Assembly: GCA_947373155.1 (NCBI GenBank)
Contig: CANBWO010000009.1
Coordinates: 1-64,000 of the forward strand
DNA length: 64,000 nt
From: Microbacteriaceae bacterium
GTDB taxonomy: Bacteria > Actinomycetota > Actinomycetes > Actinomycetales > Microbacteriaceae
Direction: 5' to 3'
Shown here: in pieces, positions 50,373 to 61,866 of the stretch
Numbering within the stretch: position 1 is the first letter of the stretch
Layout of the letters: every line of letters begins with the position of its first letter
Program-made: the position numbers and the translations under genes
The notes under the pieces: generated by a model
Databases searched by the model: none
What the model was told of the DNA's origin: nothing
Seen by the model: the letters and a program-made list of their open reading frames with translations, nothing else

Positions 50373-51269
50373 ATGAACGCGCCAGAAGCCACCAAGGACC
50401 CGACTGGGCTTTCTCTTTATACTTTGGCTGCCGAGCGCAGCAGCAACCAGGTAATCGCCGCTTACAGCACCAGTTTTGGCTGGGCAACCAAGTTGCTTGG
50501 CGGGCCTGTGCGCCAAAGTGTGAAAAACATATACGCACTGGTGCGAGTAGCCGATGAAATCGTAGATGGGGCCGCGGCAGAAGCTGCTTCCAAGGGCGGA
50601 AAAGTGATTCCGGCTCAGCAGCTAGACGACCTAGAGGCCGAGGTTTACGCCGCGCTCAGCAATGGTTTTAGCACCAATCTGGTGGTTCACGCTTTTGCGT
50701 TGACCGCAAACGAAACCGGCTTTGGAAAAGACCTAATCGAGCCGTTTTTCTGGTCTATGCGCCAGGACCTCACGGTTCAGGAATACGACCAAGCCGGCTT
50801 CGAACGCTATGTCTACGGAAGCGCCGAAGTGGTTGGACTCATGTGTCTGGCTGCATTCATTAAATTCGGCGGGGTTCAGTACACCCAGGAACAGAAGCTT
50901 GAACTAGCACTCGGAGCAAGGGCCTTGGGAGCCGCGTTTCAAAAGGTGAATTTTTTGCGAGACCTCGCTGCGGACTTTAAAGCGCTCGGGCGTAGTTACT
51001 TTCCAGGAGTGTCTGTAACCAGCTTTGACGAAAACCAAAAGTCAGCGCTAGTTGCGGACATTCAAAATGACATCGAAGTTGCATTGCGGCAGGTGGCGAA
51101 TCTGCCAAAGTCTTCATCGATGGCGGTAAAGGCTGTTCTCATGCTCTTTGCCGAACTCAACCAAAAGATTTCCAGAACCCCAGCGAACCAGTTGGTGCAA
51201 AAGCGCATTCGCGTTACCGACGGTAAAAAACTTGTGATTCTGGCCCAAGCGTATTTCGGAGTGAAATAA
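50373..51269 (+). CDS. crtB: phytoene synthase
   Basis: A 298-residue head-to-head prenyl synthase. The first aspartate motif is VRVADEIVDG and the second is in NFLRDLAADFKALGRSYFPG in part (RDLAAD, GRSYFPG). It condenses two GGPP to phytoene (C40). First gene of the crtB-crtI-crtYe-crtYf-crtEb operon. The GGPP synthase gene (crtE) is not adjacent. Confidence 0.95.
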   Translation: MNAPEATKDPTGLSLYTLAAERSSNQVIAAYSTSFGWATKLLGGPVRQSVKNIYALVRVADEIVDGAAAEAASKGGKVIPAQQLDDLEAEVYAALSNGFSTNLVVHAFALTANETGFGKDLIEPFFWSMRQDLTVQEYDQAGFERYVYGSAEVVGLMCLAAFIKFGGVQYTQEQKLELALGARALGAAFQKVNFLRDLAADFKALGRSYFPGVSVTSFDENQKSALVADIQNDIEVALRQVANLPKSSSMAVKAVLMLFAELNQKISRTPANQLVQKRIRVTDGKKLVILAQAYFGVK

Positions 51270-52853
51270 ATGGCTAAGACTGCGATTGTCATCGGCGGCG
51301 GCATCGGCGGGTTGGCAACAGCTGCTCTGCTAGCCAAGGCTGGCATGAAGGTGAAACTTTTTGAAGCCCGCGAAAAAGTCGGTGGCCGCGCCTACCTGTG
51401 GGAACAGGATGGCTTCAAGTTCGACATGGGCCCTAGCTGGTACCTGATGCCAGATGCGTTCGACCAGTTTTTCAAACTCATGGGCACCACCTCGGCGGCA
51501 GAGTTGGATTTGGTTCGACTAGATCCGGCTTACCAAACCCGCAACGAAGGCAGCCCCGACGTGCTTTTGGTGCGAGATAACGTTGCCGACAACAAGGCTC
51601 TCTTTGAGAGTCTGGAACCTGGTTCGGGCCAGCGCCTTCAGGCCTACCTTGACAGCGCTCAGGAAACCTACGACCTGGCCAAAGAACACTTTCTGTACAC
51701 CAACTTCACCAACACCAATTCGTTTACTAACCCAGCGGTTCTCAAAAAGGCCGGCACGTTTGTAAAGCACCTGCTGACTTCGCTCGACTCCTTTGCAGGC
51801 TCTCACGTGAAAGATTCAAGGCTCCGCAAGATCCTGGATTTCCCAGCGGTTTTCCTGGGGGCTTCGCCATTTGACACCCCATCGATGTATCACCTGATGA
51901 CTCACATTGACATGAATGTTGGAGTGTTCTATCCCATGGGTGGCCTCTACACGATCATCGAAGCAATCGAGCGTTTGGCGATAAAGCACGGTGTTGAGAT
52001 TCACACCAACTCCCCTGTTACTAAGATTCTGGTCGGTTCCGATTCCAAGGTTCAAGGCGTTCAGGTTGGCGGCGCTCAAATCCACGGAGACATCGTGGTT
52101 GGAAACGCAGACCTGCACCACCTAGAGACCCAACTACTCGAGCCAAAGCACCAGACCCTGCCAGCCAAATGGTGGGAAAAGCGCGTTCCCGGGCCAAGCG
52201 CAGTTTTGCTTTATCTGGGAGTCAAGGGCGAGCTTCCTCAGCTAAACCACCACACACTTTTGTACACCGAGGACTGGGCCAGCAACTTTAGCGAGGTCTT
52301 TCACAAGGCAGACGGCAAACGCAAGGTCCCTAACCCGGCTTCGCTTTACATCTGCAAGCCGAGCGCAACCGACCCTTCGGTTGCTCCGGAGGGATTCGAG
52401 AACGTTTTCGTTCTGGTTCCTATCGCGGCCGACCCGAGCATTGGCGGTGGCGGAATCAACGGCTCTGGCGACCCTGCTTTTGAAGCGGCTGCAGACAAGG
52501 TAATTCAGCAAATCGCCGACTGGTGTCACATTCCGGACCTCGCAGAACGAATCGTGTTGCGTCGCAGCATGGGACCGGCCGATTTCGTACGCGAGCTAAA
52601 CGCCTGGAGCGGAACCGCGCTGGGAATGGCACACACCCTGCGCCAGAGCGCGTTCTTTAGACCCCGAAACGTAAGCTCCAAGGTCAAGGGTCTTTACTAC
52701 GCCGGCCACCACTCGGTTCCGGGTATCGGCTTACCAATGTGCCTAATCGGCGCAGAACTGGTTTACAAGAGACTCATCGATGACCACTCGGCCGGGCCAA
52801 TCCCGAATGAAATCCAACCGCTCAGTGAAAACCAATGGAAGGGCATCAAGTAG
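51270..52853 (+). CDS. crtI: phytoene desaturase
   Basis: A 527-residue FAD enzyme. N-terminal dinucleotide motif IVIGGGIGGLATAALL, then RVGGRAYLWEQDGFKF-like segment and a C-terminal GLYYAGHHSVPGIGLPM motif. It introduces double bonds to make lycopene from phytoene. The ATG abuts the crtB stop with no gap; GGAG lies about nine bases upstream. Confidence 0.96.
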   Translation: MAKTAIVIGGGIGGLATAALLAKAGMKVKLFEAREKVGGRAYLWEQDGFKFDMGPSWYLMPDAFDQFFKLMGTTSAAELDLVRLDPAYQTRNEGSPDVLLVRDNVADNKALFESLEPGSGQRLQAYLDSAQETYDLAKEHFLYTNFTNTNSFTNPAVLKKAGTFVKHLLTSLDSFAGSHVKDSRLRKILDFPAVFLGASPFDTPSMYHLMTHIDMNVGVFYPMGGLYTIIEAIERLAIKHGVEIHTNSPVTKILVGSDSKVQGVQVGGAQIHGDIVVGNADLHHLETQLLEPKHQTLPAKWWEKRVPGPSAVLLYLGVKGELPQLNHHTLLYTEDWASNFSEVFHKADGKRKVPNPASLYICKPSATDPSVAPEGFENVFVLVPIAADPSIGGGGINGSGDPAFEAAADKVIQQIADWCHIPDLAERIVLRRSMGPADFVRELNAWSGTALGMAHTLRQSAFFRPRNVSSKVKGLYYAGHHSVPGIGLPMCLIGAELVYKRLIDDHSAGPIPNEIQPLSENQWKGIK

Positions 52854-52856
52854 CCG

Positions 52857-53165
52857 ATGCCTGGGGCGTATTTAATCGCGCTTTCGCTTAGCGTTTTGGG
52901 CCTGGCGGGGATCGACCGCAGGCACAAAATAGCTTTCTTTAACCAACCCAAAAGGGCGGGGCTGACCCTGGGCGCTGCCGTTCCGTTTTTTCTGCTTTGG
53001 GATTTGAGCGGTATTTGGTTCGGAGTGTTTTTTGAGCAAAACAAAAGCTTCTCGGTTGGGCTGGATCTGCTGCCAAATCTGCCAATCGAAGAGCCAGTCT
53101 TTCTGCTCTTGCTTTCCTACACGCTCCTGATCACCTACCTTTTAGCAGAACGCAGGCGCAAATGA
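52857..53165 (+). CDS. crtYe: C50 carotenoid epsilon-cyclase subunit
   Basis: A 102-residue membrane protein with three hydrophobic segments and the motif PIEEPVFLLLLSYT, which defines heterodimeric lycopene cyclase subunits. It pairs with the next gene to cyclise flavuxanthin-like ends. Gene overlap with crtYf is four bases (ATGA). Confidence 0.9.
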   Translation: MPGAYLIALSLSVLGLAGIDRRHKIAFFNQPKRAGLTLGAAVPFFLLWDLSGIWFGVFFEQNKSFSVGLDLLPNLPIEEPVFLLLLSYTLLITYLLAERRRK

Positions 53166-53482
53166 CCTGGCTTTATTTGGGCATCAATGCCACGTTCACG
53201 CTGTTGGCTCTAGTTGCCGTTTTTCCCGTGGCCAAAGACCTTAGAGTTCGTCCCTGGCTAGTTTCCGCTTTGTTGGTTGGGCTGCTAACCCTGGTGTTCG
53301 ACAACCTGATTGTGGGTCTCGAAATTGTGGGTTACAACCCATCGTTGATTAGCGGGCTCAGGTTGGGCTACGCACCTATCGAAGACTTTGGATACCTCTT
53401 GACCGGATCGGTTTTGATACCCGCACTATGGCAACGTTTTGGCAAAGTTGGCAAGTCGGTAAGTCAAATAGGCAAAGATTAG
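53162..53482 (+). CDS. crtYf: C50 carotenoid epsilon-cyclase subunit
   Basis: A 106-residue membrane protein with three helices and the matching PIEDFGYLLTGSVLIP motif. Together with CrtYe it forms the heterodimeric cyclase, epsilon or gamma type as in decaprenoxanthin or sarcinaxanthin synthesis. Ring type cannot be told from the sequence alone. Confidence 0.9.
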   Translation: MTWLYLGINATFTLLALVAVFPVAKDLRVRPWLVSALLVGLLTLVFDNLIVGLEIVGYNPSLISGLRLGYAPIEDFGYLLTGSVLIPALWQRFGKVGKSVSQIGKD

Positions 53483-53486
53483 AAAC

Positions 53487-54386
53487 ATGCCCCCTAAGCC
53501 CACCTTTTTAAAGCTGATTCGTCAGTTGTTTTGGGCGAGCCGGCCGGTTTCCTGGATCAACACCGCCTACCCGTTTTCGGTTGCCTATTTCTTGGCGACC
53601 AACCGCATGGATGCCGTTTTTTGGGTGGGAACGTTTTTCTTTCTAATTCCCTACAACCTACTCATGTACGGAATCAACGATGTTTTCGACTACGAAAGTG
53701 ACCTAAGAAATCCGCGTAAGGGTTCGGTTCAGGGAAGCATCCTTGATCCGATTTGGCATCGGCCAACGTTGTTGGCAGCTTTCGTGCTGCCAATACCCTT
53801 TGTGATCTTTTTGATGATCACGGGTAACTTGGTGAGCGATCTTTGGCTAGCCTTCTTCATCTTTACCGTGATTGCCTACAGCGCCAAGGGCCTGCGGTTC
53901 AAGGAGATTCCATTCCTAGATTCAGTAACCAGCGCCAGCCACTTTGTGGGCCCAATGCTGGTTGGCGCAGCCATGGCCGGGGTAGATCTTTTGACCGGAA
54001 GTGTGGTCAAGATTGCCGTTGCCTTTGCGCTTTGGGGTATGGCATCTCATGCCTTTGGAGCGGTTCAAGATATCAAGGCCGATCGTCAGGGAGGCTTGGC
54101 TAGCATTGCCACCGCTTTCGGCGCCAAAGACACCGTGCGCTTTGCCTTTATCGCCTATGGCTTTGCCGGACTCATTTTGCTCAGCGGCATTTGGCCTATC
54201 TCGCTAGCCGCTGCTGCGGTTGTGCCTTACATGGTGATTGTGGGCAGGTACTGGAACCTAACCGATGCCCAATGCGAGAAAGCGAATTCCGGCTGGAAGC
54301 TATTCATGTGGTCGAATATAGCTGCTGGCTGGCTGGTGTCGATGATTGCGATTAACGTTTACAACGCCGCACATGGTTTGGCCTAG
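53487..54386 (+). CDS. crtEb: lycopene elongase (UbiA family prenyltransferase)
   Basis: A 299-residue polytopic UbiA-fold prenyltransferase. The two aspartate motifs are NDVFDYESD and DIKADRQGG. In C50 carotenoid clusters this enzyme adds dimethylallyl groups to both ends of lycopene. Final gene of the operon. The start has no Shine-Dalgarno and lies four bases after crtYf. Confidence 0.92.
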   Translation: MPPKPTFLKLIRQLFWASRPVSWINTAYPFSVAYFLATNRMDAVFWVGTFFFLIPYNLLMYGINDVFDYESDLRNPRKGSVQGSILDPIWHRPTLLAAFVLPIPFVIFLMITGNLVSDLWLAFFIFTVIAYSAKGLRFKEIPFLDSVTSASHFVGPMLVGAAMAGVDLLTGSVVKIAVAFALWGMASHAFGAVQDIKADRQGGLASIATAFGAKDTVRFAFIAYGFAGLILLSGIWPISLAAAAVVPYMVIVGRYWNLTDAQCEKANSGWKLFMWSNIAAGWLVSMIAINVYNAAHGLA

Positions 54387-54413: not shown

Positions 54414-55376
54414 TTACCAGCGCTTATTCCAAGTGATTGAGTGTTCGGCGCTAAAGCCACGATGACACCTTGAACAGCTAGCAACTCCGGTCGGTTTTTT
54501 ATAGCGGTAATACTTGTGACCGGCCGGGCACATACCCAACCAGGTGGCCTGATTTTCATCGATGGTCTTGCCGCTGAATTTTTCGTTGCGGTATCCCAGT
54601 TTCATGGCGGCGGCCAACCAGGTTTTGTCGTGACCGTGATTTACCCCAACCTGGGCATGACCGATTTCGTGCCACAGCACCTGCCTCGACTGCTCTACCG
54701 AGTGCAACTGCGCCATGTGCTTACTGAGGCTGATGCGCTTGTTGGTGTGGTCGCATAGGCCCGCGCGCCGTTTTCCGGAATCAAAGGTGAAAGACCAGCG
54801 GCTCAGGTCTAGATGATTTGCCATTTGGGTTTGGCACATTGCTCCGATGTAATCCAGTTTGGTTGCGCTCATTCTTTGATACCTGAGGCCACCTTGGTTG
54901 TACTGTCTACCGGCAACGAAACCCAGTTTGGAATACACGTGTTGAGCGCGGGGGTTGTCTATTAGAACACTCAGCGTCAACTTGGCTAGGTCAAGTTGAT
55001 CGAAGGCAAAAACCATCACCGCTTCTATGGCCGCGGATCCCAATCCACGGTTGAACCAATCAGGCGAAGCCAGACATATTCTTAGGTTCATAGAGTTCTT
55101 GTCGGCATCTAATTCGTTGAGCACAATTTCTCCGGCAAAGTCCCCCGAAGCCACGTCTAGGATTGCCCAGTCGCAGCGGCCAGTTTGACCAGCGCGAGTC
55201 GCCACCCAGTTATCCAGCTCTGCGCGACTAAAGGTTTTCTTGGTTCCGGTAAGCCGAGAGTTTTCCGGATCATTGACCATGGCTTCGACTTCATCGAGCC
55301 AGACCGAACTCAACTGGCGCAGAGCCACTAACGGGGTGTCGAGTGGCTGCGCTGGTGGGCTAGAAAACTGTGGCAT
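54414..55376 (-). CDS. GNAT acetyltransferase-SprT-like metalloprotease fusion
   Basis: A 320-residue two-domain protein. Residues about 15-160 are a GNAT N-acetyltransferase, with the acetyl-CoA loop NRGLGSAAIEAVM at 109-121 and the VYSKLGFV ending. Residues about 180-320 are a SprT-like domain with the zinc motif HEIGH (His236, Glu237, His240), a downstream NHGHDKTW and a zinc ribbon (Cys283, Cys301, Cys304). SprT/Spartan proteases cleave DNA-bound proteins in eukaryotes. The fusion is unusual and suggests linked acetylation and proteolysis. Leaderless start with TAGGGT ending seven bases upstream. Confidence 0.87.
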   Translation of the reverse strand: MPQFSSPPAQPLDTPLVALRQLSSVWLDEVEAMVNDPENSRLTGTKKTFSRAELDNWVATRAGQTGRCDWAILDVASGDFAGEIVLNELDADKNSMNLRICLASPDWFNRGLGSAAIEAVMVFAFDQLDLAKLTLSVLIDNPRAQHVYSKLGFVAGRQYNQGGLRYQRMSATKLDYIGAMCQTQMANHLDLSRWSFTFDSGKRRAGLCDHTNKRISLSKHMAQLHSVEQSRQVLWHEIGHAQVGVNHGHDKTWLAAAMKLGYRNEKFSGKTIDENQATWLGMCPAGHKYYRYKKPTGVASCSRCHRGFSAEHSITWNKRW

Positions 55377-55383
55377 CTAGGCA

Positions 55384-55389
55384 ACCCTA
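55384..55389 (-). promoter_or_regulatory. -10 TAGGGT of the GNAT-SprT gene
   Basis: TAGGGT on the minus strand ends seven bases before the ATG at 55376. Confidence 0.5.
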
Positions 55390-55541: not shown

Positions 55542-56933
55542 ATGGCACAAAACACAACTGGCTCTGCTTCGGCAACCGCAATCGAGATCAACGACGTCCA
55601 GCCGATTCCGGCTGCCGAGCGTCACGGCAAGGCATGGCATCTGTTCACTGTCTGGTCGTCCCCAAACCTAGAGTTCGCAACCGTATTCGTAGGCGCACTA
55701 GCAATCGGCTTCGGCTTGAACGTATGGCAGGGTATCCTGGCCGTTCTGGTCGGTAACGCTCTTGCTGGCATCACCCACGGAATCCTAAGCACCTGGGGTC
55801 CAGAAGCTGGTCTTCCTCAGATGGTGCTAAGCCGCAACGCCTTTGGCAAGTTTGGAAACCTGATTCCTGCTGGTCTTTCCACCCTGGTTGCCGGTATCGG
55901 TTGGTTCGCGGTTAACACCATCTCTGGAACCTTCGCCCTTCAGGCGCTGCTTCCTGGAATTGGCGTATACGGCGCACTTCTTGTGATCATCGTTCTGCAG
56001 GTTGGTGTTGCATTCGTTGGCCACAACCTAATTCAGAAGTGGGAGCGCTACGCGTCTTACTTCTTGGCAGTGGTCTGGCTAATCGTGATCGTAAGCGTAT
56101 TCACCGTGAACGGCGCATTCAGCGTTGCTCCTGGTGGCTCGGCAGACTTCCCATGGGCAGGTTTCACCCTGACCGCAGGTGCAGCCTACGGCTACACCGC
56201 TGGCTGGACCGCCTTCGCTTCGGACTACACCCGCTACCTACCTGCTAACACCAGCAAGGTTGCACTGGGCTGGTTCGCTGGTTTGGGTAACTTCCTAAGC
56301 ACCACCCTGATCATGACCGTTGGTGTTGCTGCATTCAACGTTCTAGCCGGAAACCCTGGCGACTTCTGGGGTATCGCAAACCCAACCGAAGCATTCACCA
56401 AGACTTTCCAGCCATTCTTTGGCGCAGTAGTCTTGCTGGCAATCGTTATCGGTTCGGTTTCGGCTAACATCCTCAACGTTTACTCGGGTGCAATGTCGTT
56501 CTTGGCAATGGGCTTCAAGTTGGGCTTCAAGACTCGCCGTGCCATCATGGTGGCTCTTGCTGGTCTAGTTGGCGGACTGATCTCGTACATCGGTGTTGTA
56601 AACGGCGACGTAGCGCACCAGCTTGATGGTTTCTTGCTAGTTGTTTCGTACTGGGTATCGCCTTGGATCGCAGTTGTTCTTACCGAGCGCATCATGTCTA
56701 AGGGCAAGAACGCCGGCGAGCGCGCACTAGCTCCAAAGAACTCATGGGCAGGTGCAGCAGCATTCGTGATTGCAACCGCAGTTTCCATCTGGGGCTTTGC
56801 AAACCAGGTTCAGTACACCGGCCCATTGGCTAAGTCTTGGGGTGTCGGTGACCTAACCGCACTCGTTGGCTTTGTGCTTGCAGCAGTGCTTTTCGCTGTA
56901 TTCAGCCAGGTAGACAAGAACAGCAAGAACTAA
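55542..56933 (+). CDS. codB: NCS1 family cytosine/purine permease
   Basis: A 463-residue polytopic protein of the NCS1 (nucleobase-cation symport) family with about 12 helices. The motif WQGILAVLVGNALAGITHG and the GWTAFASDYTRYLP segment in the middle are diagnostic. The adjacent cytosine-type deaminase gene, 34 bases downstream, points to cytosine as substrate. Codon use is highly biased (GCA, CTT, AAC), suggesting strong expression. Confidence 0.9.
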   Translation: MAQNTTGSASATAIEINDVQPIPAAERHGKAWHLFTVWSSPNLEFATVFVGALAIGFGLNVWQGILAVLVGNALAGITHGILSTWGPEAGLPQMVLSRNAFGKFGNLIPAGLSTLVAGIGWFAVNTISGTFALQALLPGIGVYGALLVIIVLQVGVAFVGHNLIQKWERYASYFLAVVWLIVIVSVFTVNGAFSVAPGGSADFPWAGFTLTAGAAYGYTAGWTAFASDYTRYLPANTSKVALGWFAGLGNFLSTTLIMTVGVAAFNVLAGNPGDFWGIANPTEAFTKTFQPFFGAVVLLAIVIGSVSANILNVYSGAMSFLAMGFKLGFKTRRAIMVALAGLVGGLISYIGVVNGDVAHQLDGFLLVVSYWVSPWIAVVLTERIMSKGKNAGERALAPKNSWAGAAAFVIATAVSIWGFANQVQYTGPLAKSWGVGDLTALVGFVLAAVLFAVFSQVDKNSKN

Positions 56934-57473: not shown

Positions 57474-58388
57474 TTACAGCAGCGCCATGGTCTGGATCAA
57501 CTGGTAAATAGCTGGTCCCAAGACCACTACAAACATCGCTGGCAAGAAGCACAGCATCAGCGGCATCAGAATCTTGATTGTTACCTTTTGACCCTGTTCA
57601 CGAGCCTTGTCCTTGCGCTTGGATCTCATCTCAGACGCCTGCTCGGCTAGCACACCGCTGATTGGAACACCGAGTCGATCAACCTGAAGCAAGGCGCTCA
57701 AGAACTGCTGCATGCCCTTGCTACGAGTTCTGTCGGCCAGTTCGTTCATGGCCTCCACTCGGCTCTTGCCAAGTTGCATTTCACTAAGCAAAGCCCCGAA
57801 TTCCTCGGCAACCGGCCCGTTTAGGCTCACCGAAACGCGAGCGATACCGGCCTCAAAACTCAAACCGGATTCCACGCAAAGATTCAATAGGTCGATGGCA
57901 TCCGGCATTGCCAAATCCATCTCCTGTTCGCGATTTTGACCATCGCTGATAACTAGAAGATCTGCAACAAAGAAACCTGCCACGGCTCCCGTAAGTATTA
58001 CAGCGATGCCCATGGCCAAGCCCTTGGAAAGGAACAGGGCTCCAAACATGGCACCAACAATGGCGTAGGTAACCTTCTTGGTTAGTAGAGCGGCCAGTGC
58101 CACGTTCCCGCGCTGGCCTGCAATCTGCAACTTATTGACCAGCCAGGCTCGGTACCTAGCGTTCAGAAGGCGCTGCCCGATACTGAGGAAAAGACTGGTG
58201 TCAACCGCCTCGTCTACCTCTGCTAGCTGCTCCGGGGTGGAGTGATCGCGCAGAGTGTATTTGGGCATGGCCGCAATGGTCTGGCGGTTCTGGGCGCCAC
58301 TAACCGCACGGATGATTGTGAAGACCAGAATGGCAACGGCAGTTGCCGCCAGAAGTGAAATAAACAGAGGGAGAATCAGACTAAACAC
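57474..58388 (-). CDS. tadC: type II secretion F family protein TadC
   Basis: A 304-residue inner-membrane platform protein with GspF-type domain. N-terminal membrane segment, a cytoplasmic part, and MQLGKSRVEAMNELADRT with the later SGVLAEQASEMRSKRKDKAREQ motif, then C-terminal helices. It forms with TadB the base of the Tad/Flp pilus. Overlaps tadB by eight bases. Confidence 0.92.
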   Translation of the reverse strand: MFSLILPLFISLLAATAVAILVFTIIRAVSGAQNRQTIAAMPKYTLRDHSTPEQLAEVDEAVDTSLFLSIGQRLLNARYRAWLVNKLQIAGQRGNVALAALLTKKVTYAIVGAMFGALFLSKGLAMGIAVILTGAVAGFFVADLLVISDGQNREQEMDLAMPDAIDLLNLCVESGLSFEAGIARVSVSLNGPVAEEFGALLSEMQLGKSRVEAMNELADRTRSKGMQQFLSALLQVDRLGVPISGVLAEQASEMRSKRKDKAREQGQKVTIKILMPLMLCFLPAMFVVVLGPAIYQLIQTMALL

Positions 58389-59343
58389 GAACTGCCACCA
58401 CCTTGCTCATCCAAACCCAGCCCACAGCCAACAGGGCGATGAAAGCACCCATCATGGCAAACCCGGCCGGGTTGGTCCAGAAAAAACTCACGTACTCGGG
58501 TCGAATCACAAACAGTGACACGAACGAAAAAATCGGAAGTGCAATCAAGATGTACCCGCTCATGCGGCCTTCTGCGGAGATCACCCTAATCTCGCGTTGA
58601 ATCTCGGCCCGAGACTTAATGGTGGCTGCAACGCCATCGAGGATATGGCTAAGCGAACCACCGATTTCGCGCTGAATCTCGAGCGCCATCACTAACCAGA
58701 GCAGGTCGTCGCTAGACATACGCTGCGAGACGCGCTTGAGGGCGTCTTCCAGGTTGGAACCGAACTGAACCTCAGCGATGGCTCGTCTGAGTTGCCGCCC
58801 AACCTCTCCGCGGTCCTGAGCTGCGGTAGAACCAAGCGCTACCTGAAAAGTAAGACCGGCACGCAAACCGCTGGCAAGAATTTGTAGAACCTGTGGCAGT
58901 TCGTCGGCGAACTTTAGAGCTCGGGCTTTCACACGCGAGCTCAGAAAAACGTTCAGCAAATAAAACCCAACGATGGCGGCCATGACAAGGCCAATCAAAG
59001 CGTTGCCGAAGAAAGCCGAAGACAGAGCAAATACCAAAACCGAAGCCGCGAGCGAACCGGTTATCCAGGACTGCGAGGTGTACTCCAGGTCGGCTCCGGC
59101 CAACTTTTCATCGATGTCCCGGGTGAACTTTTTCCAAAAGACGAATCGAACCTGCTTGGGAGAATCCGCCGCCAATTCGGCTGCCTCACCAGCGCCGATT
59201 ACGCGGGCGTAACTCGACAGAACTTTGTCTAGGCGCTGCCCTTTTCTGCTGCTGAAGTTGGCGTTGACCAAGACCAGCAAAACCGCTGCCGTGGCCAACG
59301 AAACCAGTAGCGCAATAAATAACGGTCCGATGATCCACATCAT
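58381..59343 (-). CDS. tadB: type II secretion F family protein TadB
   Basis: A 320-residue inner-membrane protein of the GspF type, with two N-terminal helices, a cytoplasmic domain (LQILASGLRAGLTFQVAL, SSDDLLWLVMALEIQREIGGSL) and C-terminal helices. Partner of TadC. Its ATG overlaps the tadA stop by four bases. Confidence 0.92.
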   Translation of the reverse strand: MMWIIGPLFIALLVSLATAAVLLVLVNANFSSRKGQRLDKVLSSYARVIGAGEAAELAADSPKQVRFVFWKKFTRDIDEKLAGADLEYTSQSWITGSLAASVLVFALSSAFFGNALIGLVMAAIVGFYLLNVFLSSRVKARALKFADELPQVLQILASGLRAGLTFQVALGSTAAQDRGEVGRQLRRAIAEVQFGSNLEDALKRVSQRMSSDDLLWLVMALEIQREIGGSLSHILDGVAATIKSRAEIQREIRVISAEGRMSGYILIALPIFSFVSLFVIRPEYVSFFWTNPAGFAMMGAFIALLAVGWVWMSKVVAVRV

Positions 59344-60701
59344 TTCTTGAACACCTCTTTAGCAAGGAAAATCCCGCGTTGATTTAGTCGGTCCATGAAA
59401 CTTGGCACATGTCCGGTTGGCATCAACTGGCCCAGCTCCGCAGAATCCTTGTCCTTGTTATAGACAAAGTGAAAAATATCCTGGGTCTTGATGTGGCCGT
59501 CGTGCATTCCCAAAAGCTCAGTGATGGCGGTGATTCGGCGTGAACCGTCGTGCATTCGGGTCTGCTGAATAATCAGGTTCACCGCTCTGCCCACCTGGTC
59601 GCGAATAGCCGTCATGGGTAGTTCCATGCCAGCCATCAAACTCATGGTCTCGAGCCTGCTAATGGCATCGGTGGTGCTGTTGGCGTGCACTGTGGTGAGC
59701 GAGCCGTCGTGTCCGGTGTTCATGGCCTGAAGCATGTCGAGCGCGGCACCGTCTCGAACCTCACCAACCACGATTCGGTCTGGGCGCATTCGAAGCGAGT
59801 TACGAACCAAATCGCGAATGGTGACAAGACCCGTGCCTTCGATGTTGAGCGGCCTGGTTTCCATTCGGATAACGTGCGGTTTAGCCAGCTGAAGTTCAGC
59901 GGAGTCCTCGATGGTGACGATTCGCTCGTCATCTGGGATAAAGCTACTCACCACGTTCAGCGTGGTGGTTTTTCCCGAACCGGTTCCACCGCTAATCACG
60001 ATGTTCATGCGGCCTCGAACGGCAGCGTCCAGAAACTCCATGGCGTGCTGGGTTAGCGTGCCGGTGTTGACCATGTCTTTTGCCGTGAACGGATCCTTGA
60101 AGAACTTGCGAATCGTCAGAGTGGAGCCATCTAGCGCAATAGGCGGAACCACAGCGTTCACACGGCTACCGTCTTTGAGGCGGGCATCAACCAGCGGACT
60201 AGATTCATCGATGCGGCGGCCCACCTTGCCAACAATGCGGTCGATCGTCTTACGCAGGTGGTCCTCATTGGTGAAACTTAGCCCGGTTGCGGTGAGCTTT
60301 CCGTAGCGCTCCACATAAATGGTGTCGTAGCGAGCCACCATGATTTCGGTCACCTCGGTGTCGCGAAGCAACTGCTCCAAAGGACCATTACCAAGGATGT
60401 CATCGACAATTTCCTGCACCAGTTCGGCGCGATCGCTGTCGGTAAGTGGGTGATCGCTTCGTTCGATGACAATGGCGATGGCCTTGTAAACCATGGATTG
60501 CAGCGTGTCCGGGTCAAGATTGCCGCTGTAAAGGCTCTTGCCCACCAGCTCCTTGAGCTCGTCGTTTACCTGAATCCTAATTTCACCGATGTCCAAACGC
60601 TCGGGCATCACATTGGCAATAGTGCGAAGGGCACCGGTTGCTAGATACGGAGTGGATTCCGTGGTGTGATCGGTGCGATTAAGGCGATCGGAAAGGCTCA
60701 T
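59340..60701 (-). CDS. tadA: CpaF/TadA secretion ATPase
   Basis: A 453-residue hexameric ATPase. Walker A is [12 protein letters not shown], the Asp box is [15 protein letters not shown] in part, and the Walker B region [20 protein letters not shown] precedes [12 protein letters not shown]. It drives assembly of Flp pili at the inner membrane. The gap to the upstream tadZ gene is seven bases. Confidence 0.96.
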
Positions 60702-60708
60702 CTTTTAT

Positions 60709-61866
60709 CTATCTCTTCTTTCCAAAAAACAATCCGCGACGAGGTTCGGCGATCTTGACTCCGGTGATTTCTTGAGCAATACCCTTGATGGACTTTGCCA
60801 CCGCGTGCTTAGGGCTTGCCTCAACCACGGTCTTGCCCTGGTTAGTGCTGATAGGAACAATCTCGTGGTTTGGAATGGTCGCGGATATCTCCATTCCAAT
60901 CGTGGATTGAACATCCTTGACGGAGATTCCGGCCTTAGCGGTGGAGCGGTTAACCACTACCTTCCATTTGCTTCGTGGCATGCCCAGAGCCTGCAAGGTG
61001 CCCAAAGTCACCTTTAGGTTTTTCAGCGATGGGGTGTCCAAGGTGGTCAGCAACAGATACTGATCGGCCATATCAAATGCGCGCAGAATTACCTCGGTGA
61101 AGGCTGGTGGGGCATCAACTACTACGTAGTCGTAGCTGTCCTTTAGTCCGCGAAGAATTTTTTGCGCAAGGTCTGGGGTGATGAACTCAACATCGCTGGG
61201 GTCAAGCGGGGCAAGCAAAACATGAAAGTTTGGCTTGTGCTGGGTTACCAAACTGCGGATTCCAGGTAGATCCAAGCTGTGCTGCATGCGAATGGCATCG
61301 CTGATTGTCTTGGCTGGCTCTAGCTGCAAGGCAACCGCCACGTCACCGAACTGCAGGTCGAAGTCCACTAGGCAAACGCTCTTGCTCGGGTCCATGGCCA
61401 GGGCCTCGGCAAGGTTGGTGCTAACCGTGGTCTTGCCACACCCGCCCTTAGCGCTGAACACCAAAATCATCTTGCCTTTTTTAGCCGGACTAAGGTCTGG
61501 TTGTTTGTCGGTGAAGACTTCGCTAACGGTTTGACTGCGGCGAGTGGCGGCTAAAAGTTCGGCCGCATCATCGCTGCTGATGACCTCACGAATACCGGCC
61601 TGCATCGCCTGGCTCAGAGTTGCAACCTCTAGTCGCTGGCGAACTAGAATCACGCCGAGAGCGGGTCTTACCGTTCGGTAGTGCTTGGAAAGCTCAACCG
61701 CAACATTCAGCGGCACCTCAGGCGCAATAACAATAAGCAACTCGTTCGGGTCTTGCTCAATCCAGTCGAGTAGCTCACGTGGAGTGGGTACAACCTTGGT
61801 TTCGGCTCCCAGAGTAAGGCGGTAGCGTTCGGCTCCGGTTTGAGTTTCAGAAAGAATGACAGTCAT
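60709..61866 (-). CDS. tadZ: CpaE/TadZ-like ParA-family ATPase
   Basis: A 385-residue protein. Residues about 1-115 form an atypical receiver-like domain, followed by a MinD/ParA ATPase with the deviant Walker A SAKGGCGKTT and VVVDAPPAF. TadZ localises the pilus machine to its site in the cell. Directly downstream of cpaB. Confidence 0.9.
   Translation of the reverse strand: MTVILSETQTGAERYRLTLGAETKVVPTPRELLDWIEQDPNELLIVIAPEVPLNVAVELSKHYRTVRPALGVILVRQRLEVATLSQAMQAGIREVISSDDAAELLAATRRSQTVSEVFTDKQPDLSPAKKGKMILVFSAKGGCGKTTVSTNLAEALAMDPSKSVCLVDFDLQFGDVAVALQLEPAKTISDAIRMQHSLDLPGIRSLVTQHKPNFHVLLAPLDPSDVEFITPDLAQKILRGLKDSYDYVVVDAPPAFTEVILRAFDMADQYLLLTTLDTPSLKNLKVTLGTLQALGMPRSKWKVVVNRSTAKAGISVKDVQSTIGMEISATIPNHEIVPISTNQGKTVVEASPKHAVAKSIKGIAQEITGVKIAEPRRGLFFGKKR

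Follow-up and report, generated by a model that had tools for sequence, protein, structure and literature searches.

Results

The gene and its surroundings

The DNA analysed here, a stretch of 64,000 nucleotides that we call the window, comes from a genome that belongs to Rhodoluna (Microbacteriaceae), a genus of small freshwater bacteria. On its minus strand, positions 54414-55376 form a single intact frame of 320 codons plus a stop, with the ATG at 55376, the stop codon at 54414-54416 and no internal stop; the product has 320 amino acids, and the plus-strand reading of the same interval contains stops. An earlier note on this DNA, made from the letters alone, had placed here a GNAT acetyltransferase fused to a SprT-like metalloprotease. 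Its coordinates are correct, and the strand, which it had not given, is minus. The features of the gene are as follows.

54414..55376, minus strand: GNAT-SprT fusion gene, an open frame whose homologues are complete in 18 further Rhodoluna genomes
55385..55388, minus strand: AGGG, a likely ribosome-binding site read from the sequence, 8 nt before the ATG
54915..55322, minus strand: GNAT domain (Acetyltransf_3), residues 19-154; Pfam E 9.2e-17, structural match to SpeG with Z 21.5
55029..55049, minus strand: RGLGSAA, residues 110-116, which we take to be the acetyl-CoA binding loop; G113 and A116 in 19/19 and G111 in 18/19 intact fusions
54813..54860, minus strand: junction helix, residues 173-188, at which the GNAT joins the N-terminus of the ancestral stand-alone SprT protein; a helix in the model, where stand-alone SprT proteins begin
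54591..54809, minus strand: SprT-like metalloprotease domain, residues 190-262; Pfam E 6.7e-8, the equivalent part of a half-GNAT relative matching minigluzincins, SPRTN and Wss1
54657..54671, minus strand: HEIGH zinc-binding and catalytic motif, residues 236-240; H236, E237 and H240 invariant in 57/57 genus and 18/18 stand-alone rows
54630..54632, minus strand: H249, presumably the third zinc-ligand histidine; invariant in the same 57/57 and 18/18 rows
54465..54530, minus strand: C-terminal zinc ribbon (C-x2-G-H ... C-x2-C), residues 283-304; C283, H287, C301 and C304 in 56/57 genus and 18/18 stand-alone rows

The fusion ends 27 bases from the end of a convergent UbiA-type gene (53487-54386), which matches the NCBIfam model PRK13105, named only prenyltransferase, and it starts 165 bases from a divergent permease gene (55542-56933; PF02133). 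From the sequence we take the adjoining stretch 50373-54386 to encode a phytoene synthase, a desaturase, two small cyclase subunits and a UbiA lycopene elongase; this carotenoid-type neighbourhood is conserved across the genus loci compared. Farther along, at 57474-61866, lies a run of minus-strand frames that presumably are Tad-type pilus genes, judging by their resemblance.

Two intact domains in one frame

By the curated Pfam cut-offs the window protein belongs to both PF13302 (Acetyltransf_3; residues 19-154, 62.5 bits, E 9.2e-17, cut-off 25.4) and PF10263 (SprT-like; residues 190-262, 32.8 bits, E 6.7e-8, cut-off 25.6), and it has the HExxH motif and third histidine of the latter family. 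These cut-offs were compared for the window protein; the other complete fusions were scored at E 0.01 or better, a level at which both models match in 19 of 19. The two-domain make-up of the frame is far beyond chance, and with both matches above cut-off and complete copies in 18 other genomes the gene is a genuine one. An AlphaFold2 model built on the 19 aligned fusions has two well-formed domains (mean pLDDT 89.6, pTM 0.82), and the pTM value makes their relative placement confident. The acetyl-CoA loop and the HEIGH motif, described as intact in the earlier note, and the C-terminal ribbon that it names were found and are conserved in position across the complete fusions.

Within the cofactor loop, G113 and A116 are present in 19/19 complete fusions and G111 in 18/19, while position 110 is R in 13, H in 3 and Q in 3. 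N141 is kept in 19/19 and Y148 in 18/19 intact rows, the window being among those that keep both the loop and the catalytic tyrosine position; the roles of these loop and tyrosine positions in the fused GNAT are our assumption. The closest fold to this part of the model is SpeG (Z 21.5, rmsd 1.6 over 158 residues), followed by RimL/RimJ at Z about 20. Among the 50 matches listed, then, the fusion shares the fold of PF13302, SpeG and RimL/RimJ at Z 18.2-21.5, along with the cofactor loop and the catalytic tyrosine position, but at an identity of about 10-24%, and it falls below the SpeG equivalog cut-off of NCBIfam (31.6 bits against 218). It differs from the GNAT family further in being fused to a protease and in having many relatives that lack the catalytic positions. 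For the intact model, GNATs took up the fold-match lists, so that the protease fold was tested through the model of the half-GNAT relative described below.

In the protease part H236, E237, H240 and the third histidine at 249 occur in 19/19 complete fusions, with the two residues inside HExxH variable, and the ribbon positions C283, H287, C301 and C304 likewise in 19/19. A wider residue table of 57 Rhodoluna rows (19 intact, 38 with an eroded N-terminal part) and 18 stand-alone rows gives the same picture: the four protease positions are invariant throughout, and the ribbon positions are kept wherever a row extends that far, the single exception among the genus rows (L081) ending before the ribbon. 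The HExxH motif and third histidine are held in common with the SprT-like family, including the SprT domain of SPRTN (PF10263), and with the minigluzincins selecase, jannalysin and Wss1.

The available text of three papers places this domain in a known setting: a single protease tree places bacterial SprT domains alongside SPRTN, Wss1 and GCNA (PMC5098910), Wss1 is described as a minigluzincin-like protease (PMC4559962), and SPRTN has a metalloprotease subdomain followed by a zinc-binding domain (ZBD), the zinc-binding part aiding DNA binding (PMC9240642). The fusion shows a comparable order, protease and then a putative zinc-binding part; the equivalence of ribbon and ZBD is positional only, and the structural matches to the half-GNAT model end at about residue 176, before the ribbon. 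Unlike SPRTN, Wss1 and the minigluzincins, the fusion carries an N-terminal GNAT or its remnant; Pfam recognises no further domain. By homology to SPRTN and Wss1 it probably acts on DNA-protein crosslinks.

Phages carry a counterpart of the protease part. The family phrog_1006, which has no assigned function, covers the SprT domain and ribbon of the fusion, residues 180-319 (window 54420-54839), with E 5.6e-30, and includes no GNAT; since the match spans positions 18-154 of a model of 155, nearly its whole length, phages carry the stand-alone form. One matching locus was found in the viral contigs searched, again with the SprT part only. SprT-like proteins are reported, in the part of PMC12363180 available, to be widespread in mycobacteriophages. 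A search of the fusion against PADLOC-DB returned none of its anti-phage defence families up to E 0.1.

Distribution within Rhodoluna

The fusion protein finds a match (E 1e-3) in 62 of 67 Rhodoluna genomes and none at that threshold in the other five (G015, G026, G075, G079, G083); most genomes of the genus are drafts, with completeness of 59-99%. Nineteen, the window's included, hold a complete, intact two-domain fusion, and three more hold contig-cut pieces of intact type (G077, G003, G085), none of which reaches the protease and two of which, those of G003 and G085, end short of the cofactor loop. By a manual reading of the frames, which is how all 62 genomes were assigned, the N-terminal part is not an intact GNAT in the remaining 40 (class B 14, F 4, C 13, D 4, E 3, G 2). 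Two contig-cut loci, L082 (class C) and L083 (class E), were excluded from the residue table; L074 and L081, also cut, were included. Second SprT pieces at contig ends in G081 (L076) and G023 (L080) were left uncounted; they could reflect a duplicated gene, a strain mixture or contamination.

In 20 of 21 loci compared (12 intact and 9 eroded, made up of the window and 20 of the other 61 matching genomes) the gene has the UbiA-type gene as its neighbour; the twenty-first (L113) stops at a contig end, and from this shared position we take the intact and eroded genes to be orthologous. The type strain, Rhodoluna lacicola MWH-Ta8 (G005), has the half-GNAT form.

The earlier note had named a frameshift joining two genes, or separated genes in all relatives, as what would refute its reading; a search for the identical domain order instead found it complete in 18 other genomes. 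A frameshift or an assembly join of two adjacent genes is also refuted by the full-length fusion in 18 of 80 loci returned from a named collection, largely from the same assemblies, and by 74 loci outside the genus, in which the SprT frame never contains a GNAT and a separate GNAT is matched once, weakly. Nothing was found in favour of such an artefact, and we regard it as next to impossible. One locus of the collection, L153 (CAMDEE010000002.1), is titled Auritidibacter sp.; the title is probably wrong, and the locus is likely the same as G080:C2 of Rhodoluna.

Erosion of the acetyltransferase

The eroded genes keep the protease. Proteins of classes B and F, 220-234 amino acids long, match the SprT model in 18/18 rows and a GNAT model in 0/18; of the 17 rows of the longer forms (classes C, D and E), all match SprT and 10 match Acetyltransf_3 weakly. 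When their profiles were matched to that of the intact GNAT, classes B/F reached a probability of 98.7% (from 12 of 18 rows), class C 97.4% (from 8 of 13 rows) and class D 98.9% (4/4 rows), but class E only 5.9% (3 genomes, 3 rows). By this comparison of sequence profiles the eroded N-termini of classes B/F, C and D are GNAT-derived; the claim covers those classes, with E (3 genomes) and G (2 genomes) standing outside it. The positions that mark the intact domain have largely gone: among the 38 eroded rows, G113 is kept in 1, A116 in 18, N141 in 4 and Y148 in 3.

A half-GNAT protein was modelled from an alignment with L015 as its first row (AlphaFold pLDDT 87.8). Ahead of the protease it has a helix, a strand, a helix and two strands, and its residues from about 1 to 74 overlay the C-terminal half of GNATs with a best Z of about 8 over 63-71 residues; the match to 8iym (Z 8.1 over 69 residues) is modest by itself. 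In this form, as modelled, the remnant is about the C-terminal half of a GNAT fold. For residues 73-176 the structural matches are selecase and jannalysin (Z about 11), SPRTN 6mdx (Z 10.1) and Wss1 (Z 7.8), so that the protease part of the half-GNAT relative has the minigluzincin and SPRTN fold. Foldseek with the same model returned nothing at E 0.001 or better, its best match being SPRTN 6mdx (0.0025), followed by GNATs and minigluzincins.

We traced the intact label on a tree of the SprT part alone (75 rows, 148 columns), in which deep nodes are weak. Set against all other rows, it requires five changes if the gain is counted, and starred branches force three of them. AU tests reject a single clade of intact rows (p 0.018) and a single clade of eroded rows (p 0.007), and do not reject a single clade of B rows (p 0.058). 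Given that B/F, C and D have N-termini derived from a GNAT, the change runs towards loss, and the tree suggests that the GNAT was lost at least twice and probably more times. Two intact rows, L033 and L034, are placed among B rows, a hint of recombination or of the limits of the tree.

Selection on the two parts was compared by a counting method, with 27 usable pairs of intact genes, 6 of class B, 11 of class C and none of D or F; since dS is often above 1, the values are rough. In the 14 intact pairs of lowest dS, dN/dS is 0.05-0.38 for the N-terminal part and 0.02-0.33 for the protease part. The eroded N-termini give 0.04-0.20 in class B and 0.05-0.23 in class C, the B rows L011, L012, L014, L015 and L018 having been begun at a later in-frame ATG, so that pairs among them cover 51 and not 71 N-terminal codons. 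These comparisons indicate that the N-termini of intact and eroded genes alike are under constraint, which in 16 of 17 eroded pairs (class B 5/6, class C 11/11) is weaker than that on the protease part.

That excess, together with a length that varies between clades, is what might be expected if the eroded N-termini were functionless leftovers in decay, with nothing entrenched. Yet their dN/dS is low in all 6 class B and 11 class C pairs, their fold is predicted confidently, and an N-terminal extension is retained in every complete eroded gene read, which encodes at least 220 amino acids in total against about 150-190 for most stand-alone forms. We find simple decay very doubtful.

The stand-alone protease outside the genus

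A search across the family found matches in 378 of 398 genomes and 82 of 85 genera; outside Rhodoluna, among the matches listed, the protease part only is covered. The stand-alone SprT protein of other Microbacteriaceae is mostly about 150-190 amino acids long and has protease and ribbon as in the fusion, at 35-48% identity among the matches listed; it differs in having no GNAT and, among the clusters listed, in its neighbouring frames. It starts at about the junction helix of the fusion, which implies that it was a whole protease that received the GNAT. In 74 outside loci, which include duplicates (e.g., L047/L094 and L087/L185), a GNAT in the SprT frame was found in none, and a GNAT elsewhere in a locus only as one weak match (L200, E 0.003), with the positive control recovered in 7/7 in both cases. 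These loci thus show no neighbouring pair of GNAT and SprT genes from which the fusion could have come. Alignment ends had suggested read-through upstream past a stop into a GNAT in some outside genera; no GNAT was present in the 37 loci read.

In a sample of the phylum, searched for independent fusions of this kind, 64 of 198 genomes match the fusion profile (E 1e-10), all with GNAT-type proteins except the window's genome. That genome aside, no listed match extends to HExxH, the longest ending at position 214; stand-alone SprT proteins also stay below the E 1e-10 level in this sample, so that a divergent fusion could escape it.

The location of the SprT gene in Rhodoluna differs from that in the outside loci. 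In 35 of 48 of these (L169-L205, L086-L093, L095, L101, L102) a same-strand frame that Pfam does not recognise lies upstream of SprT. This frame may be spermidine-synthase-like, and a gene near SprT in some outside loci is presumably that of RNA polymerase beta. Given that Pfam leaves the upstream frame unnamed and that a search of the window's genome, run with no positive control, was empty, a polyamine link was given no weight.

Separate GNATs

A profile of the fused GNAT was searched (E 1e-6) in 14 genomes with eroded genes, four of them single-contig, in 3 with intact fusions and in 8 of a neighbouring small-genome genus. It recovers the domain in 3/3 intact genomes. At that threshold 13 of the 14 eroded genomes have no separate GNAT of the fused kind, the match in G067 being its own remnant only; the exception is G084, which carries one stand-alone copy besides a further match that is weaker. 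Of the 8 genomes of the neighbouring genus, 1 (G101) has a stand-alone copy. A GNAT tree groups the stand-alone GNATs of G101 (L222) and G084 (L225:5230-5778) with the fused domains in one clade, well supported (starred) as a whole but not in its internal order, so that the stand-alone copies may be either the source gene or copies released from the fusion.

The kinship with stand-alone GNATs, and closest solved folds of SpeG and RimL/RimJ type, would fit a chain that carries two enzymes with nothing to do with each other: a GNAT acting in a SpeG- or RimL-like manner on a small molecule or another protein, and a protease whose expression alone the fusion couples to it. The SpeG model score is far under its cut-off, however, and such an arrangement leaves unexplained why a constrained half-GNAT should stay attached after catalysis was lost. 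We consider it unlikely.

Discussion

We think it likely that the gene encodes a SPRTN-like protease with an accessory GNAT, of which the GNAT part has become structurally entrenched and its catalysis often lost. A GNAT was joined in frame to the N-terminus of the small SprT-like zinc protease that stands alone in most Microbacteriaceae genomes searched, with protease and ribbon wholly kept. The protease is the conserved working part and, by homology to SPRTN and Wss1, probably cleaves proteins stuck to DNA with the ribbon aiding DNA binding. In the window's species and scattered others, the GNAT has retained both the acetyl-CoA loop and the catalytic positions and is probably active; in other species comparison shows that the cofactor site was lost more than once, leaving a remnant under purifying selection. 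We suspect that this moiety persists for structural reasons, capping the N-terminal side of the protease or offering it a contact surface, a role to which its conservation points.

The earlier note had proposed that acetylation, of a substrate or of the protein itself, might control the protease, and had remarked that no standard pathway uses this pairing. On the one-chain form, no title or abstract about a GNAT-SprT fusion turned up in the open-licence PMC literature; of four papers there that contain both words, PMC7824862 has SprT and GNAT as unrelated mentions. In trans, the pairing is known. PMC9240642, with reference to Huang et al. 2020, reports that the GNATs PCAF/GCN5 acetylate human SPRTN at K230, a modification tied to chromatin retention. 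There too a GNAT acts with a SprT protease, but as two separate proteins with a reported regulatory acetylation, whereas the single chain described here is not known to undergo one.

This precedent lends the idea of acetylation in cis some weight, and the comparative evidence leans against it. The GNAT would acetylate its own protease or a protein stuck on DNA and so alter DNA retention or cleavage, with the eroded species having replaced the switch otherwise. Conserved cofactor and catalytic positions in intact rows, dN/dS below 1 in both halves and the confident placement of the domains in the model agree with such a switch. Against it, the GNAT is not intact in 40 of 62 matching genomes, yet all rows long enough to include the protease residues have them unaltered; separate GNATs of the fused kind are absent from 13 of the 14 eroded genomes searched; the fused GNAT occurs at 0/74 SprT loci outside the genus; and the protease domain has no lysine that sets intact-GNAT species apart, K202 being K or R in 38/38 eroded and 18/18 stand-alone rows. 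The proposed control is thus not supported, and we judge the switch rather unlikely. Equally improbable, in our estimate, is the fuller form of the idea, that intact species have a self-contained, acetylation-controlled DNA-protein-crosslink protease, a one-chain counterpart of PCAF/GCN5-SPRTN, of which the half-GNAT would be a contact surface left over after the switch had become superfluous and turned into a new non-catalytic domain, the C-terminal half of a GNAT.

The same observations favour a protease with an accessory GNAT. Because the GNAT is eroded in so many genomes with the protease ligands unchanged, and almost all of those searched have no separate copy, acetylation appears dispensable for the conserved job; and since the protease is kept nearly everywhere while the acetyltransferase chemistry is often lost, the fused acetyltransferase looks like an optional extra on a protease core.

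The literature searched on SprT proteins is mainly eukaryotic, and bacterial SprT is widespread, as its presence in 378 of the 398 genomes of this family attests. The half-GNAT would be a case of an enzyme fold halved and retained as a structural module, and since R. lacicola MWH-Ta8 carries that form, a cultured strain exists for tests. Rhodoluna offers a natural series in one orthologous gene, from the full fusion through a dead GNAT to a half-GNAT, with stand-alone forms in sister genera, and the series lets one ask what an acetyltransferase adds to a SPRTN-like protease.
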